From: Treponema sp.
GTDB taxonomy: Bacteria > Spirochaetota > Spirochaetia > Treponematales > Breznakiellaceae
NCBI GenBank assembly: GCA_009780545.1
Contig: WQZW01000062.1
Span: forward strand, 1 to 7,708
DNA: 7,708 nt
Direction of reading: 5' to 3'
The translations under genes and the position numbers were made by a program. Shown here one piece after another: positions 1-7,646 of this stretch (the first letter of the stretch is position 1; the number at the start of each line of letters is the position of its first letter). Under the pieces are notes generated by a model. That model was not told where the DNA came from, did no database searches, and was given only the letters and a program-made list of their open reading frames with translations.

Positions 1-107
1 CCAGGCCTCTTCCCGCTACAGATCAAATTCCAATCCCAAAAGCGGTGCATGCTGGTCCAATCGGCATGGCCGATTGGACTTGGAGGTTTGCTCCGCAAAC
101 CTCCACC

Positions 108-135
108 CCGCCGATCTGCGACCGGCGGCTTTTTT
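108..135 (+). terminator. Terminator-like hairpin, array unit 1
   Basis: Arms CCGCCGATC (108-116) and GACCGGCGG (120-128) pair around a TGC triloop with one A-C mismatch, followed by C and six T residues. This is the layout of an intrinsic terminator for plus-strand transcription. No plus-strand gene is visible upstream in the window, so it may serve a convergent gene further left or simply be part of the repeat. Orientation is opposite to the operon. Confidence 0.45.
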
Positions 136-293
136 CGGCTCTGGGCTTATCCCGCTCTTGCAAAACCTTGGCCGCCAGGATTTGCCCCAGGCCTCTTCCC
201 ACTACAGATCAAATTCCAATCCCAAAAGCGGTGCATGCTGGTCCAATCGGCATGGCCGATTGGACTTGGAGGTTTGCTCCGCAAACCTCCACC

Positions 294-321
294 CCGCCAG
301 TCTGCGACCGGCGGCTTTTTT
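294..321 (+). terminator. Terminator-like hairpin, array unit 2
   Basis: Second copy of the array hairpin. Arms CCGCCAGTC and GACCGGCGG surround a TGC triloop with one A-C mismatch, followed by C and six T residues. Two substitutions relative to unit 1 move the mismatch one position, so stem strength is kept. It reads as an intrinsic terminator only on the plus strand. Confidence 0.45.
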
Positions 322-479
322 CGGCTCTGGGCTTATCCCGCTCTTGCAAAACCTTGGTCGCCAGGATTTGCCCCAGGCCTCTTCCCATTACAGATCAAAT
401 TCCAGTCCCAAAAGCGGTGCATGCTGGTCCAATCGGCATGGCCGATTGGACTTGGAGGTTTGCTCCGCAAACCTCCACC

Positions 480-506
480 CCGCCAGTCTGCGACCGGCGG
501 CTTTTT
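480..506 (+). terminator. Terminator-like hairpin, array unit 3
   Basis: Third copy of the array hairpin, with arms CCGCCAGTC and GACCGGCGG around TGC, followed by C and a T run shortened to five. It lies about 70 bp beyond the stop codon of the DUF4387 gene but on the strand opposite to that gene. It would therefore stop antisense transcription entering from the left rather than end the operon itself. Confidence 0.4.
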
Positions 507-573
507 CTGGCTCTGGGCTTATCCCGCTCTTGCAAAACCGTGGCCGCCAGGATTTGCCCCAGGCCTCTTCCCA

Positions 574-891
574 CTACAGATCAAACTCCAGCCCCAAAAG
601 CGGTGCGTGTTGTTGCGCCCCGTAAACATCGGTTTCCCCCAAATCCCCCGAACAAAGCGGGCGGACAATGGTCATCTTGATGGCCTTGGCCGGTTCGAAG
701 TTGACGATGGTGATCACTTCCTCGGGGCGGATGCCGTACAGGGAGCAGAGGAGCTTCTTGTCGATGAAGCCGCCGTTCTTGACGGCGTTGTAGGCGGCAT
801 AGTCCTTGAAGATGATGTCCAGGGTCAGTTCGTAGGGGCCGGAGTTCTTGCTGCGGATTACGTCGGTAATGTCGGTGAGTTTCGTTTTCAT
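574..891 (-). CDS. DUF4387 family protein, partner of AtuA-like protein
   Basis: A small protein of 105 residues that I assign to the DUF4387 family. It matches my recollection of the family at the N-terminal block IRSKNSGPYELTLDIIF (residues 12-28) and the C-terminal block GETDVYGAQQHAPLL (85-99), and it has the usual length of about 100 residues. No signal peptide or membrane segment is visible, so it is probably cytosolic. Members commonly sit beside AtuA/DUF1446 proteins, as here, and the two probably act together; the reaction is not established. Two adjacent ATG codons exist at 894 and 891. The Shine-Dalgarno sequence AGGAGG (902-897) is 2 nt from the first and 5 nt from the second, so I prefer 891. 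That Shine-Dalgarno overlaps the atuA stop codon, suggesting translational coupling. The final 13 codons including the stop are the segment copied throughout the left tandem array. Confidence 0.88.
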   Translation of the reverse strand: MKTKLTDITDVIRSKNSGPYELTLDIIFKDYAAYNAVKNGGFIDKKLLCSLYGIRPEEVITIVNFEPAKAIKMTIVRPLCSGDLGETDVYGAQQHAPLLGLEFDL

Positions 892-895
892 CATG

Positions 896-903
896 CCCTC
901 CTA
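896..903 (-). promoter_or_regulatory. Ribosome-binding site of DUF4387 gene, overlapping atuA stop
   Basis: TAGGAGGG on the minus strand. Its first three bases are the stop codon of the upstream AtuA-like gene. The spacing favours the second of two consecutive ATG codons as the start. Sharing bases between stop codon and ribosome-binding site predicts coupled translation of the two proteins. Confidence 0.8.
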
Positions 904-2259
904 AAGGTCCGTGTACTCGATGGGGAACAGCGCCGCCGGGTCCTCGACACGGAGCAGGTGGTAGACGCTGAACTGGTAAACCTCGCCGGCGTGGAAGTCG
1001 CTGGGGGAGTAGGGGAAGGCGAGGTTGCCGGCGGTGGCCTTGCGGCCGGGATAGCCGTAGTGAAGCATGGTCGAACGGGCCATGGCGCAGATCGTGTCGG
1101 CCATTTGCTGGCTGTCGGAGACGGCCTCGATCACGATGCCGAACTCGTGGGCCAGCGGTTTTGCCCGCAGCGGTTCGAGGCTTCCCATCACGCCGTCCCG
1201 TCCGTAGACGATGAAGTTCAGGTCGTAACGGAAGCCGCTTTCCTTGAAGTTGTCGGCAACCCGTTCCCGCACTCCGGCGATCACCTCGTCGATCTTCTCC
1301 ATCATCAGGGGGTCCCGGGTGCCGGCGATGGAAACCGTCCGGAAGCCGATCCTGCGGGAGCCTTCCAGCTTCACTTCGTAACCGTCCGAGGGCACGAACT
1401 TCGATCCGCTCACTTTCACCGCATTGTCCCCTACCTGCTCGAACTTCGCCTCGGTCAGGTCCAGGTGTCCGCCGGGACCGGGGAGGATGTAGGGATCGGT
1501 TTTTTCGTACAGGGTGTGGGCGGCCACCGAAAGGGTGGTGCATTTGCGCAGGGGATTCAGGGTTTGGACCCGGAAGTAATCCTTGCCGATGAAGCCGAAG
1601 ATGCAGTCCGAGCCGCTGCCCGGCGTGGCGCAGAGGGCGGCGCATTCCAGTATCTTGCCCAGGTGGGTGGCCAGCCCCATGTCGTAGCCGGACTTTACCG
1701 CCAGCGAGGAGAACACCGCCGGGTCGTAGGAGCGGCCGGCAAGGATCACCTGCGCCCCGCCCTTGTAGGCTTCGATGAAGGGCTCCACCCCCATCTGGGC
1801 GACGATGGCGGCGGTCGCTTCCAGGGCCTCGGCGGTCAGTTCCGGCGCCGGTTCCAGGGGGCGCACCTTGCCGGCGGCCAGGGCCTCGGCGATCAGGGGC
1901 TTGGGCAGTTCGGCCTGAATCACCGCAAGCCGAAAACTAAGGGATTCCTCCCTTGCGATCTCTTCGACGATCTCCCGATTCCACCGAACGTGGGCCTTGG
2001 CCCCGCTGCCCCCGGCCGTGCCGATGCAGACCGGAATGCCCTCCCTCACGCCGGCGCGGATCATAATCCGCAGGTCGCGCTTGACGGCCTCCCGGTCGGT
2101 GAAGGAAATGCCGGCACCCAGGTAGTAGGGGCCGGGATCGGTGGAGCCGGCGTCCACGGCGATCAGGTGGGGCTTCAGCTTCATCCCCTCCTCGAAAGAG
2201 GCGACCGGAAAGCCGTAGCCGAGGATCGCCGTGGTGGAAAGTATCCTGAATTCTTCCAT
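901..2259 (-). CDS. AtuA-family (DUF1446) protein
   Basis: A 452-residue protein of the acyclic terpene utilisation AtuA family (DUF1446). Visible family features are LGYGFP (residues 13-18), VDAGSTDPGPYYLG (35-48), the glycine-rich GTAGGSGA (80-87), AGRSYDPAVFSSLA (174-187) and a cysteine/glycine-rich stretch around 201-222. It looks full length and cytosolic. The family name comes from Pseudomonas genes for citronellol/geraniol breakdown, where the biochemical role is unclear; terpene use is unlikely here because the gene follows mal in a glutamate-fermentation locus and precedes its common partner DUF4387. A role in handling mesaconate, citramalate or a CoA ester downstream of methylaspartate is my inference only. 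The ATG at 2259 is set by a perfect Shine-Dalgarno, AAGGAGGT, 6 nt upstream. A hairpin-rich repeat lies directly before that site. Six bases separate its stop codon from the preferred start at 891. Confidence 0.87.
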   Translation of the reverse strand: MEEFRILSTTAILGYGFPVASFEEGMKLKPHLIAVDAGSTDPGPYYLGAGISFTDREAVKRDLRIMIRAGVREGIPVCIGTAGGSGAKAHVRWNREIVEEIAREESLSFRLAVIQAELPKPLIAEALAAGKVRPLEPAPELTAEALEATAAIVAQMGVEPFIEAYKGGAQVILAGRSYDPAVFSSLAVKSGYDMGLATHLGKILECAALCATPGSGSDCIFGFIGKDYFRVQTLNPLRKCTTLSVAAHTLYEKTDPYILPGPGGHLDLTEAKFEQVGDNAVKVSGSKFVPSDGYEVKLEGSRRIGFRTVSIAGTRDPLMMEKIDEVIAGVRERVADNFKESGFRYDLNFIVYGRDGVMGSLEPLRAKPLAHEFGIVIEAVSDSQQMADTICAMARSTMLHYGYPGRKATAGNLAFPYSPSDFHAGEVYQFSVYHLLRVEDPAALFPIEYTDL

Positions 2260-2265
2260 TAAAGA

Positions 2266-2273
2266 ACCTCCTT
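2266..2273 (-). promoter_or_regulatory. Ribosome-binding site of AtuA-like gene
   Basis: AAGGAGGT on the minus strand, 6 nt before the ATG at 2259. The base of a GC hairpin (2279-2293) ends only about 5 nt upstream of it, so the repeat element directly flanks the initiation region. Confidence 0.85.
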
Positions 2274-2277
2274 ATGT

Positions 2278-2462
2278 GGGGGGCCGAGCCCCCGATCCAA
2301 TCGGCCAGAGGCAGATTGGATTTAGGAGTTTTGCAAGGCAAAACTCCACCCGTTTACCCGATAAGCTCATGCGGGGGGCCAAGCCCCCCTTCGTTCCACC
2401 CCCGCTACCGCGGGGCTTCCACTACCCCCCGAGCGGGGTTCCACCCCGCAACGCCCCGCATT
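2278..2462. repeat. Composite hairpin element, copy A (between mal and atuA)
   Basis: This element fills nearly the whole gap between mal and the AtuA-like gene and has a second copy at 7114-7303 in the same orientation. It is a mosaic of hairpins: GGGGGC/GCCCCC with loop CGA (2279-2293); 12-bp arms with one mismatch around AGA (2295-2321); GGAGTTTTGC/GCAAAACTCC around AAG (2325-2347); GGGGGGC/GCCCCCC around CAA (2373-2389); and GCGGGGT/ACCCCGC around TCC (2433-2449). The right half is bounded by ATGCGGGG (2369) and CCCCGCAT (ending 2462), an inverted repeat. None of the hairpins is followed by a T run on the minus strand, so it is not a classical intrinsic terminator for mal. It encodes no transposase. 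It could act in mRNA processing or stability, or be a non-autonomous mobile element. Confidence 0.85.
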
Positions 2463-2474
2463 TACTGCGTGAGT

Positions 2475-3722
2475 TTACCTTTTACCTCTTGCCCGTAACA
2501 TCGCCAGAATTCGCTGCATCTCGTTGTGGACGATCATATATCCCTCGTCCACGCCCATTCCGGGCTTTGCCAGCACCTGGCAGGGACCGCAGGCCATGGC
2601 GATATGGACGCAGACCTGGGCCGAGCGGTCGGTCTCGTTGCAGGTACCGCCCTGGTAGGCGGCGATTCCCCGTTCCTTGCAGTACAGCACCGCCTCCACG
2701 ATGTCGCCGATGCCGCCGAGGTCCGGGGTCTTGATCTGCACCATGTGGCCGGCCTTGTTGTCGGCAAAGTACTTGATGTCATCCAGCGTGTTGCACCATT
2801 CGTCGGCGACGATCTGCACGTCCGAGCCCCGCCCGTCGATCATCCGGCTCAGGTCCCGCAGGGCGATCATCTGTTTTTCCCGTTCGCCGGCGTCGATCGG
2901 GCCCTCGATCCGCAGCTTGAAGGGGGCGGCGATCTTGCCCAGACCGACGATGTAGTCGGCCATCGCCGGCATGTCGTCGCCGAAGATCATCCCGATGGTG
3001 CCGTACACGTCCAGGTGCAGGGCCGGCTCGTACCCGGGATCGCCGCGCAGTTTGGTGATCCGTTCGGCAAGCCAGCGGACGTACTCGGCAAGCAGCTCGC
3101 CCTTTTTGCCCAGCTTGGTCTCCACGTGGTTGATCAGGCCGTGGGGAAGGACCGCCGCTCCCTTGATGATCATCTTGTCCACGTTGTCGTAGCGGTTGTC
3201 CCCGCTCTGGGTGAAGATCGGGATCATCTCGCGGCCGAGGAGGGTTTCGTATTCCTCGGCGATCACCTCGCACATCATCAGGTGCCGGCTTTTGGCCACC
3301 GCGTCCAGCAGTGCCTGGCTCAGGCCGTAGCGGATGGCGGTGTGCAGGCGCTTGCCCTCGACCTCGATCCCCTCAAGTTCGGCGGCCATCTGCCGGAACG
3401 TGCCGACGGTTTTGCCCGCGAGCAACGGCTTCAGGTGCCGGTCGATGAAGGGGATGAAATTCTCGGCCAGGAACAGCGGATCCCGGCCTCCGGTGCCGGA
3501 ATACTGGACCGCGGCGCAGTCCCCGAAGGCGACCTGGCCGTCCTCCAGAACCAGCATCACCGAAACCGATTCGCCCGCCTGCCGCACGGCGGTAAAGCCG
3601 GGCGTGACCGGGTTTCCCCGATAGGCCGCGCCGTCCGCTTCGGCGCCTTTTTTGATCGCGGCCTGGTCGTCGAAGAAAAAGCCCGTCCGACCGGGCGCGC
3701 ACACAACGTCGATAATTTTCAT
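2475..3722 (-). CDS. mal: Methylaspartate ammonia-lyase
   Basis: Methylaspartate ammonia-lyase (EC 4.3.1.2), 415 residues, a cytosolic Mg-dependent enzyme of the enolase superfamily. It removes ammonia from (2S,3S)-3-methylaspartate to give mesaconate, the second step of glutamate fermentation. The protein aligns by eye along its whole length with the Clostridium tetanomorphum enzyme (413 residues). Known key residues are present at the same numbers: His194 and Lys331 (acid/base pair), metal ligands Asp238, Glu273 and Asp307, Gln329, and Thr360-Cys361. The start is the ATG of MKIIDV; upstream in-frame ATGs would read back into glmE and are not needed. This ATG overlaps the glmE stop as ATGA, so the two are translationally coupled, helped by a modest AAAGGA site about 12 nt upstream. 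After its TAA, only 12 bp separate it from the composite hairpin element; there is no intrinsic terminator. Confidence 0.97.
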
Positions 3723-5212
3723 TTGTTCCCAAACCATCCTTTCTTTTTTTCCGGCACGGCGGCTTCCGGCGGCCTTCCGACCAGCCTGCCATGCCCTATC
3801 GCCGACACGTCGTCTATCACCATTTGAAACGAAGCCTTGCGTTTTTCCTGCTTGGCCCGCTCGTCGATCTTTCCTTCGTGGAAGGCCAGAAGGTCCCGAC
3901 TGAAGGGAACCGAACCCGGATTGAGGATGCGGATGGCCCCGTCGTTGTCCCGGGCCGGCAGCATCACCCCGGCATTGTGCCGGCTGGGGGCGAAGGGAAT
4001 GTCGATGACGCCGGCCTGGAAAGCCCGCACCGCACCGGTGGCGATGTCGCCGCCGCCCAGCTCGAAGCACTTGTCCACGATAGGCCGCGTCTCGGCAAGG
4101 ATGATCGACATCTCCTCCTCGAAACGGGCCCCCATCACCGTCTGATCCTCCAGCATGGAGATCGCCTGCTTGGTGCAACGCAGTCCCTGGGCATTGGCCT
4201 CCATCGTGGGAACGCCCATCGCCTCGTGCGGGGTCTTGACGATGACCTTGGTCGCCTTGGCAAGGGCCGCGACGGCGCTTCCCCAGGAGATCACGGCAAA
4301 GGCCTTGGATTCGTCCGGGGGGAAACCGCCCATCCACTGGTGCAGGACGGTGGTTACCACCACGTCATCGTAGCCGTACTTGGCAAGGTATTCCTCGGTG
4401 AGCTTTTCCAGGGCGCACACGGCGGCGACGTCCTGGATGAAGTTGCCGCACTGCCCGTAGCCGACGGTGATGCTCTTGACTCCCTGCTCGGCGGCCAGGA
4501 GGCTTTCGATGATGGCCACGCTGTGGGAGATGCAGGGCGGGACCAGCGTGCCGGTAAGCGGCCCGAAGGGTTCCCGGTTGATGCGGACTCCCCGCTCCTC
4601 GTACAGGCCGGTAAGGCGGTCCACATATTGCCAGTCCCGAATCGTGGTTTCCAGGGTAACGCTCTTGGCGTAGGGAATGTTGTAGGAAATGCCCCCGCCC
4701 TCGAAGCTCGTAAAGCCGCCGGAATAGGAAATCTCGGCAAGGAGCCGCGCGTCAGGCGTTCCATGGCGGATCTGCACCGGCACGTCCAGGCTTTCGACGA
4801 TCAGCCGGCACTTGTCCACGCCGTAATTCACCGCCGGAAACCCGTTCAGCATGGACTTCCCGGAGCGGACGCTCTCGTTGATGCCGTCCTCGGCCTCCTT
4901 GAACCGCTTCTGGCGGGTGTAGCTGTCGATCGTCGTCGGCAGCAGGTCGGCCTCGCCGACATTCTGCAGGTAGGTGAGCAGCTTGATGTGGTCGCCTACC
5001 AGGGCGACCCCGGCCCTCGGCTGGATCAGCGTGCGGTGCCCGGCCTTGGCCTCTTCGAGCTTCAGGGGGAAAAGCTTGTTCTTGGGGAGTTTTTTGTGGA
5101 ACTCCACCGCCTTCTTCATGTCAACCTGGGCACCGGTGGGCCATTGGGTGAGCACTCCCTCCCGGGAGCGGTTGAACTCACCCTCGTCTATCTTCCGGTT
5201 GCACAAATCCAT
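3719..5212 (-). CDS. glmE: Glutamate mutase epsilon subunit (methylaspartate mutase E)
   Basis: The catalytic large subunit of adenosylcobalamin-dependent glutamate mutase (EC 5.4.99.1), 497 residues. It forms the TIM-barrel chain that binds glutamate and, with GlmS and coenzyme B12, rearranges L-glutamate to (2S,3S)-3-methylaspartate by a radical mechanism. Alignment by eye to the clostridial protein (483 residues) is collinear. The arginine claw that holds the substrate carboxylates is intact (Arg66, Arg100, Arg149), as are Glu171, Tyr177 and Tyr181, all at the same numbers. Conserved blocks include [24 protein letters not shown] and HQWMGGFP. About 14 extra residues at the C terminus, after GRLVGRP, are lysine-rich ([11 protein letters not shown]) and appear lineage-specific. 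The start ATG has GGAGGT (5225-5220) 7 nt upstream, inside the 15-bp gap to glmL. Its stop overlaps the mal start. Confidence 0.97.
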
Positions 5213-5227
5213 CCTGCGTACCTCCGC

Positions 5228-6607
5228 TTAGCCGATTGGCGTTATCGATTGTTTCATTATCTTGAGTGCCGCCTGTCGGTCGTAACCGGCGAGCAGGCCC
5301 ATTGCCGAAAGAATGTAGTCCCCGTCGATGAGGGGCTCGGCCTTTTTTGGCCGGAGGGATTCCGGAACGGCCTCGCCGTACATGGCGAAACCGGCAAGTT
5401 CCGCCTGCCTCCGGGCATGGATCAGGGCTCCGCCCGTCAGCACGATCCGGTTCGTGTTCCGCAGGTCCTTGCCGTTCTGGAGGTAGAGCGCCCCGTCCGG
5501 GGTGTAGATTTTCTCCACGCTGCCGGCATGGCGGACCGTGGCGGTTTCGATGGCTCCGGCGGCAAGGGCGAAGTCCACGGCCTTTTCCCCGTCGCTCTCC
5601 GGCAGGGCTTCGGTATGTCGGCCAAAACGGTCCACGATTGCCTGCGCCTCCTCCTTCGGCAACCCCGACATCCGGCTTATCCTGTCTATGCCCACCGCTT
5701 CCAGTATCCCATGCACGGAGTACCTCATCCCGATGTCGCCTTCCACCGTCCGCATCGCGTAGGGCTCGGGAAGTCCCCGGTACACCGTGTCGGACTCGGT
5801 GGGCAGGCCGTCGGCTATGGAGTACACGTCCGTGGTCGCCCCGCCCAGGTCCACGGCCAAAAGTTCCCCGATGCCGGCCTCGTTCTCCGTCCCGGCGGCA
5901 AGCAGTTCCACGGCGGCAAGCACCGCCGCCGGAGTCGGCATCATGATTCCGTCCAAAAGCCCCGATTCCCTGCTCAACCCCTTCGCCCTGACGATCCTTT
6001 CAAGGAAGATGTCCCGTATCTTCAGCCGGACCGCCTCGATCTGGAGTTTGCCCAAGGTCGGCATCACGTTGGGGCAGAGGTGGGTTTCGTGCCCCTTCAG
6101 CAGCCGCAGCGCCCGTTCGGCGCAGCTTCGGTTGCAGGCGACCACGACCGGGCACCTGCCCTTCCTTCGGGCGAGCATGGCGGCGTTGTGCAGGGCGCAT
6201 TCGGTGTTGCCGCCGTCGGTGCCGCCGGTCAGAAGGAGTATGTCCGGGGAGATTTCGTCGATCTCGGCAAGGTCGTCCTTGGTGATCTGGAAGGAGCAGG
6301 TCTTCCGCACCTTGGCCCCCGCGCCGAACGAGGCGAGCCTGGCCGCCTTGGAGGTAAGCTCGGGAACCAGTCCGCAGACCACCATCTTCAGGCCGCCGGC
6401 CGCCGAGGAACAGGCGTAGCGCCTGCCGTAGGTTACCTTGCCGGTGAGCTTTTCCAGTTCGGCCACGGCCGACTCAAGGCCCTCGCCCACGTCGCTTTCC
6501 ACGGTGGTGTAGCTTGCCGCGCAGCCCAGGATGCGGGGAGTCTCCGTGTCCGCGGCGGTAACCTTGGTGTAGGTACTCCCGAAATCGATGAGCAGGACCG
6601 CTTCCAT
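5228..6607 (-). CDS. glmL: GlmL/MutL accessory protein of glutamate mutase
   Basis: A 459-residue protein of the MutL/GlmL family, encoded between the two glutamate mutase subunits as in clostridia. It has the ASKHA (actin/Hsp70-like) ATPase fold signature: phosphate-binding loop IDFGSTYTK (7-15), LLLTGGTDGG (124-133), second phosphate motif VDLGGATTDVYS (252-263) and the adenosine-site motif IVLTGG (388-393). No membrane segment is seen. The family is not the DNA-repair MutL. Its exact role is unproven; a chaperone-like or reactivating function for the B12 enzyme has been proposed by analogy with diol dehydratase reactivases. The ATG at 6607 lies 5 bp after the glmS stop, with AGAAGG (6623-6618) inside the end of glmS serving as ribosome-binding site, so the genes are probably coupled. 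Confidence 0.95.
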   Translation of the reverse strand: MEAVLLIDFGSTYTKVTAADTETPRILGCAASYTTVESDVGEGLESAVAELEKLTGKVTYGRRYACSSAAGGLKMVVCGLVPELTSKAARLASFGAGAKVRKTCSFQITKDDLAEIDEISPDILLLTGGTDGGNTECALHNAAMLARRKGRCPVVVACNRSCAERALRLLKGHETHLCPNVMPTLGKLQIEAVRLKIRDIFLERIVRAKGLSRESGLLDGIMMPTPAAVLAAVELLAAGTENEAGIGELLAVDLGGATTDVYSIADGLPTESDTVYRGLPEPYAMRTVEGDIGMRYSVHGILEAVGIDRISRMSGLPKEEAQAIVDRFGRHTEALPESDGEKAVDFALAAGAIETATVRHAGSVEKIYTPDGALYLQNGKDLRNTNRIVLTGGALIHARRQAELAGFAMYGEAVPESLRPKKAEPLIDGDYILSAMGLLAGYDRQAALKIMKQSITPIG

Positions 6608-6612
6608 AGGTA

Positions 6613-7077
6613 CTAGGCCTTCTTTGCCGGCTTGAAGGCGCTCTTGATCATCCTAAGCGGCGTGTTCCGCAGGTCGCCCCGCAACGAGCCGATCGCCGTC
6701 TCCGGCGTGGTTCCCGGCGGAAAAACCCGGTCGAAGCCCATCTGCTTGAAACGCTTTTCCACGTCCTCGAACGGCTGCTTGCCCACGACGAGGTTGCCCC
6801 CCACGTATATGAGGATGTCGCCGATGCCGCTTTCCCGGCACTTGTCCCGCATTCCGGGACAGTCCAGTTCGCCATGCCCGTACAGCGAGGACACGATGAT
6901 CGCGTCCGCCGCCGATTCGATGGCCGCCTCGATGAACTCCTCCTGCGAGACCATTACCCCGAGGTTCACCACCTCGAAGCCGGCCTCGGTAAAGGCATGA
7001 TTCAGGATGGTGTTCCCCACCGCATGAACGTCCGCCCCTATCACCCCGAGCACGAGCACATGTTTCTTTTCCGCCAC
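6613..7077 (-). CDS. glmS: Glutamate mutase sigma subunit (B12-binding, methylaspartate mutase S)
   Basis: The small cobalamin-binding subunit of glutamate mutase, 154 residues, against 137 in Clostridium tetanomorphum. It has the base-off/His-on B12 fingerprint: Asp16-x-His18-x-x-Gly21 (His18 ligates cobalt), Ser63-Ser64-Leu65, and Gly93-Gly94 in [10 protein letters not shown]. The Rossmann-like domain covers residues 6 to about 137. A basic tail of roughly 18 residues (ending SAFKPAKKA) follows the usual end. It is not the glucosamine synthase that shares this gene symbol. The start codon is GTG at 7077, chosen because AAGGAGGT lies 4 nt upstream and the next residues match the family start. 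It is the first gene of the tight glmS-glmL-glmE-mal cassette; a copy of the composite hairpin element lies 24 bp upstream of its ribosome-binding site. Confidence 0.97.
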
Positions 7078-7081
7078 AAGG

Positions 7082-7113: not shown

Positions 7114-7303
7114 GGGCCAAGCCCCCGATCCAATCGTCCGGAGGCCGATTGGATTTAGGAGATTTGCAAAGCAAATCTCCACCCTTTTGCCCATCATGCG
7201 GGGGGCCAAGCCCCCCTTCACTCCAGCCAAAAGTTGTCGCAAAGCGACAACCTTCGGCTTCCGTTACCCCCCGAACGGGGCGCTGCCCCGTAACGCCCCG
7301 CAT
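7114..7303. repeat. Composite hairpin element, copy B (upstream of glmS)
   Basis: Second copy of the element at 2278-2462, in the same orientation and with the same order of modules. Hairpins are GGGC/GCCC around CAA (7114-7124); 12-bp arms with one mismatch around GGA (7128-7154); GGAGATTTGC/GCAAATCTCC around AAA (7158-7180); GGGGGGC/GCCCCCC around CAA (7200-7216); GTTGTCGC/GCGACAAC around AAA (7233-7251), unique to this copy; and ACGGGGC/GCCCCGT around GCT (7275-7291). The right half is bounded by ATGCGGGG (7196) and CCCCGCAT (ending 7303). Together with the array to its right it occupies most of the 521-bp gene-free stretch upstream of glmS. On the minus strand it would form the glmS leader or an intercistronic region. 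Confidence 0.85.
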
Positions 7304-7325
7304 CGACCGCAAACGATCAACGTCC

Positions 7326-7646
7326 GGAGATTTGCTCCGCAAATCTCCATAGCTTATCCACATAGTGGATAAGCCTTCAGTCCCCGCGACAAACGCATGG
7401 AGATTTGCCCCGCAAATCTCCATAGCTTATCCACATGGTGGATAAGCCTTCCAGATAAGCCTTCCGTCCCCGCGACAACCGCATGGAGATTTGCTCCGCA
7501 AATCTCCATAGCTTATCCACATGGTGGATAAGCCTTCCAGATAAGCCTTCCGTCCCCACAACAACCGCATGGAGATTTGCTCCGCAAATCTCCATAGCTT
7601 ATCCACTCATAGTGGATAAGCCTTCCAGATATGCCTTCCGTCCCCG
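7326..7646. repeat. Double-hairpin tandem array, four copies (73/86-bp spacing)
   Basis: Four copies of a two-hairpin unit begin at 7326, 7399, 7485 and 7571 (spacings 73, 86 and 86 bp; the longer units contain 13 extra bp, TTCCAGATAAGCC). Hairpin one has arms GGAGATTTGC/GCAAATCTCC with loop TCC (CCC in copy 2). Two bases later comes hairpin two, arms GCTTATCCAC/GTGGATAAGC with loop ATA or ATG. In the last copy hairpin two has 11-bp arms around CAT (7597-7621). The rightmost copy overlaps the 3' end of the incoming coding region. Repeat modules resemble those of the other two gene-free regions. No T run makes any of them a minus-strand intrinsic terminator. Confidence 0.92.

Follow-up and report, generated by a model that had tools for sequence, protein, structure and literature searches.

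The window, by which we mean the whole stretch of DNA analysed, is a Treponema sp. contig of 7708 bases whose minus strand encodes the end of an Fe–S hydro-lyase, methylaspartate mutase S, GlmL, mutase E, methylaspartate ammonia-lyase, an AtuA-family protein and a DUF4387 protein. The six full-length genes are metabolic. The hydro-lyase is represented by a fragment of 35 residues that matches the model NF005310 with an E-value of 6.4e-6, far under the model cut-off, as expected of a fragment. Immediately 3' of the DUF4387 gene lies an array of 186-bp units (TRF score 1128, units 96% alike) that extends past the left end of the contig, which breaks off inside it, and a second, shorter-period array overlaps the hydro-lyase gene. 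The features discussed below are as follows.

574..894, minus strand: DUF4387 gene, 106 amino acids (Pfam PF14330, E 4.7e-38)
427..612, minus strand: unit A, the gene tail (612-574) plus a 147-bp spacer
241..426, minus strand: unit B, tail copy 426-388 with stop codon TAA, plus spacer
55..240, minus strand: unit C, tail copy 240-202 plus spacer
1..54, minus strand: incomplete unit D, tail copy 54-16 and a further 15 bp up to the contig end
427..451 (also 241-265, 55-79), no strand assigned: hairpin hp1, at the unit junction (inverted repeats, fold)
453..477 (also 267-291, 81-105), no strand assigned: hairpin hp2, GGAGGTTTGC-N3-GCAAACCTCC, dispersed in the Treponema family (inverted repeats, fold)
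480..500 (also 294-314, 108-128), no strand assigned: third hairpin (unit comparison, fold)
7368..7646, minus strand: second hairpin array, built of 86-bp units, with a gene-side end that overlaps the last codons of the hydro-lyase gene (stop 7601-7599)

Pieces of the operon are widespread at roughly 65–80% DNA identity, with matches in 61 of 300 genomes from the family of an Oscillospiraceae-titled locus (query 574-7080) and in 85 of 195 from the family of a Treponema sp.-titled locus (whole window as query). Intergenic stretches within 2371-2476, 7251-7315 or 2321-2355 recur in at least 30 genomes of the Treponema relative's family among the matches listed, and 2371-2459 has no match among the rows for the Oscillospiraceae-titled locus family (query 574-7080). 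These intergenic matches and the distribution of the hp2-type hairpin given below make a termite-gut treponeme the probable host; the Oscillospiraceae, suggested at first by DUF4387 identity, were rejected as host group once the hairpin proved so rare among them.

Copies of the DUF4387 gene tail

The last 12 codons and stop of the DUF4387 gene (574-612) form the opening 39 nt of unit A, and all three non-coding tail copies (388-426, 202-240 and 16-54) likewise encode QHAPLLGLEFDL followed by a stop. A unit-by-unit comparison bears out the preliminary description of this arrangement in both its coordinates and its codons. Across the 39 bp, tails A and B differ synonymously at unit positions 3, 6, 21 and 27 and by TAG versus TAA at position 39, the four synonymous differences and altered stop reported before. 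Tails C and D each show the five differences from the gene already described, at positions 3, 6, 21, 22 and 27, again all synonymous. The leucine difference at position 22 (CTG/TTG) is absent from copy B, which has CTG like the gene, and hence does not split gene from array; sites 22 and 39 are polymorphic within the array, leaving four fixed synonymous differences between the gene and all three copies.

All of the tail differences between units A to D are transitions. Of the 36 transitions possible in the 12 codons, 15 leave the amino acid unchanged, so that under random transitions four changes out of four are synonymous with P = 0.023 and five out of five with P = 0.008. Divergence is also higher in the tail than in the neighbouring spacer: 5/39 positions against 4/147 between units A and B (p = 0.02), 5/39 against 5/147 between A and C (p = 0.04). 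These synonymous-only and tail-versus-spacer tests were chosen post hoc and draw on few sites. Changes unique to the gene's own unit are distributed in the same way, with 4/39 in the tail and 3/147 in the spacer (p = 0.036), and four of these seven lie in the first 27 bp (p = 0.009, post hoc).

The sequence QHAPLLGLEFDL is the conserved C-terminus of DUF4387 proteins, being present exactly in 3 of 80 related loci and in 4 of 7 proteins inspected, with close variants in many others, which upholds the earlier proposal that the copies stem from the 3' end of a functional DUF4387 gene. The comparison with related loci that had been suggested was run on these 80, the closest of which has 73% protein identity and 79 of which have at least 300 bp of downstream sequence. 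None of the 80 has a tail copy 3' of DUF4387 (best match 21/36, cut 27). Similarly, no array-bearing relative was found in 190 genomes from the family of the Treponema relative, where there were short matches at most: the array query (1-573) matched in five, four of these being hp2 alone and one the gene tail alone (up to three candidates scored per genome). The breakpoints and the order of events are therefore not seen directly.

Hairpins and their relation to known repeats

Each full unit contains three strong hairpins (minus-strand fold z -5.6 to -5.7, equalled by 0 of 200 shuffles), with the junction between units sitting at the foot of hp1. In unit C the third hairpin (108-128) differs from the other two units at two adjacent bases, yet its predicted stem is fully paired in all three units. 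We make no claim that it is a terminator, a terminator scan of 1-700 having given no site. An Rfam search gave no match that reached gathering scores.

Hairpins of the hp2 type occur at nine places in the window and in 75 of the 190 genomes of the Treponema relative's family, with up to 49 copies, versus 1 of 300 genomes in the family of the Oscillospiraceae-titled locus; the control, in which the pattern was read backwards, was found in 1/190 and 1/300, respectively. This points to a hairpin dispersed among termite-gut Treponema relatives, a subject on which we found no open-licence paper combining the terms Treponema, termite and repetitive extragenic palindromic. Within the window, 2281-2359 and 7114-7192 are copies, 89% alike, of a dispersed two-hairpin element (CCAATC..GATTGG, then GGAG-TTTGC..GCAAA-CTCC) that also recurs within every unit of the first array. 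Four loci from other Treponema-family genomes (L085, L137, L138 and L139) have a near-constant hairpin of the GGAGKTTTGCG.AGCAAAACTCC type followed by a second hairpin whose sequence varies from one locus to the next.

Clusters of REP sequences are reported to be reiterated in tandem together with flanking DNA segments, and REPs to overlap the ends of ORFs (PMC3733652). The first array shares with REP clusters and BIMEs its intergenic hairpins, their dispersal in the family, the location at gene 3' ends, tandem reiteration with flank and ORF-end overlap (PMC3733652). The array shows two hallmarks of REPs and BIMEs, palindromic intergenic hairpins and tandem reiteration with flanking DNA. It differs from them in that roughly 12 codons belonging to a conserved gene are part of the flank that is reiterated. 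No link between a Y1 transposase (RAYT) and the hairpin was found: Y1_Tnp occurred in 4 of 8 hairpin-rich and in 4 of 8 hairpin-free genomes. We read the array as a probable REP-like cluster.

Two further systems invite comparison. The MIRU-type tandem repeats of mycobacteria overlap stop codons and so, like the first array, are tandem repeats at gene ends; by their description they are set apart from it, the array being hairpin-based, in another lineage and made of units that carry a conserved gene tail. Integrating elements can restore the 3' end of the gene that they enter, an example being e14 in icd, and share with the array gene-end copies that differ at synonymous sites. The units of the first array differ from e14-like elements in having a 186-bp period, a hairpin at the junction and neither integrase nor cargo, and nothing in the contig, which covers the array only as far as its left end, points to an integrating element.

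Origin of the first array

The reading that we favour, with a probability of about 0.68, is tandem amplification of a REP-like hairpin block together with flanking gene-tail DNA, followed by divergence of the tail on the gene side. A REP-like block 3' of DUF4387 would have been amplified along with its flank and, with one breakpoint 39 nt inside the gene, each unit would carry the last codons as passive, non-coding baggage. Because hp1 has its foot at the unit junction, the copies were probably made by slippage or unequal exchange aided by the hairpins. The allele of the gene may later have been swapped by homologous recombination, with one end of the exchanged tract close to the stop codon, which would leave synonymous differences in the tail, and/or the edge of the array may rarely have been homogenised, with selection passing only synonymous changes in the gene. 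The strong folding of the units, the dispersal of hp2, the 80 DUF4387 loci that have no tail copy, the second array and the two-hairpin array at L205 speak for this reading; the failure to find an array-bearing relative, the rarity of tail capture in the surveys described below and the even spread of Y1_Tnp between hairpin-rich and hairpin-free genomes speak against it.

Four histories were compared by simulation, using priors that we set ourselves and only 4–7 sites. Joint acceptance was 9.2e-4 for allele import, 3.0e-4 for unequal exchange, 9.4e-5 for duplication in two steps and 3.4e-5 for duplication in one. Plain duplication in tandem, whether completed in one step or in two, with independent drift thereafter, is the simplest history and agrees with units that are 96% alike, but the probability of the observed tail divergence given the spacer is 0.0016 under the one-step and 0.020 under the two-step model, compared with 0.047 for import. 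With a tail that has diverged more than the adjoining spacer, plain duplication fits badly, as the preliminary description had anticipated, and we consider it quite unlikely; allele exchange ending near the stop, or poor homogenisation of the edge, fits better. A related suggestion, that the copies preserve the ancestral form while the gene drifted, is not supported on its own, since the contrast in unit-unique changes between tail and spacer would require the gene tail to evolve far faster than the spacer.

It is possible, though we hold it with some reserve, that the edge effect suffices by itself: unequal crossing-over would homogenise the inner units and the gene-side spacer but seldom its outermost bases next to the gene, where the gene tail would diverge under protein selection with no need of a foreign allele. 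The clustering of four of the seven unit-unique changes in the first 27 bp argues for this, as does the probability of the tail divergence given the spacer, 0.20 and the highest of the four models (0.35 in a smaller first run that lacked the import model). Against it, the probability of a tail that is both this divergent and synonymous, given the spacer, is 0.0064 versus 0.0148 for allele import, a weak contrast that arises because array copies drift freely in the model, making synonymous-only differences rare. The sequences at hand do not separate allele import from the edge effect. Mixed-strain assembly would mimic import, and a chimera, in which gene and array come from different strains, is conceivable in a mixed metagenome; the contig is 7708 bases long and ends within the array, and a DUF4387 protein 95% identical to this one lies on another short contig, showing that close strains occur. 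We nevertheless regard such a join as unlikely. The least probable origin of all is repeated insertion at the gene end of an integrating element bearing a replacement 3' end, the kind of element proposed earlier. Gene-end copies with synonymous differences are the trace typical of such elements, and the synonymous-only copies here match that pattern; however, a 186-bp unit holds no gene and is too short for an integrase, the six complete genes of the contig have metabolic functions, the first array matched no phage or plasmid record and three exact patterns were absent from IMG/VR, while the second array carries the end of another gene.

Tandem amplification of the hairpin block with its flank reveals no new mechanism: an ordinary process accounts for the array. 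It does suggest that a hairpin cluster can carry a gene end along and leave a different allele beside the gene, so that the array preserves, on a small scale, a natural trace of exchanged alleles or of homogenisation that was uneven.

The second array and a survey of gene ends

The units of the second array copy the 3' end of the Fe–S hydro-lyase gene, and relatives share the GR..YL terminus that this gene encodes. Since this gene is unrelated to DUF4387, the design of the array recurs. Two of the copies depart from the gene at two synonymous sites and by a 2-base indel; the third combines the 2-base indel with one amino-acid change and a 13-base deletion. Copies elsewhere with non-synonymous changes at the same rate had been named as evidence that would refute the earlier interpretation, and the second array supplies this in part: its indels and amino-acid change, which stand beside two synonymous changes, indicate that copies are free to lose coding sense. 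A hairpin, GCTTATCCAC..GTGGATAAGC at 7589-7646, overlaps the hydro-lyase stop codon, and the repeat may supply the last codons and stop of that gene.

Two surveys asked how common such copying is. One took 3244 mechanically defined open frames from 86 loci and the window, and scored whether the final 36 nt of a frame recurred no more than 800 bp away; hits came from three frames in the window itself and, outside it, from one locus (L019), where the repeat lies inside the reading frame. The other covered 3096 frames in 94 records including the window, with two contigs present twice and a cut of 26/36. Of its 23 rows, 20 came from 18 distinct sites beyond the window, for the most part in frames that were short or repetitive, and the three of these 20 that were inspected (L200 once, L205 twice) held no clean gene-tail array. 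At L205, and likewise at L199, which was taken from a list of tandem repeats, the array starts at a stop codon and contains no copy of the gene end.

Both arrays of the contig capture a gene end, and this is rare elsewhere in the surveys, which leaves room for a further reading: that arrays in this treponeme lineage repeatedly capture the last 10–13 codons of the upstream gene, the copies serving as a recombining store of alternative 3' ends. Recombination with stored ends would then keep copies and gene matched at the protein level. We think this highly improbable. At L205 (140-372), in another genome of the Treponema family, a 109-bp array with a similar pair of hairpins starts just past the stop of an open frame.
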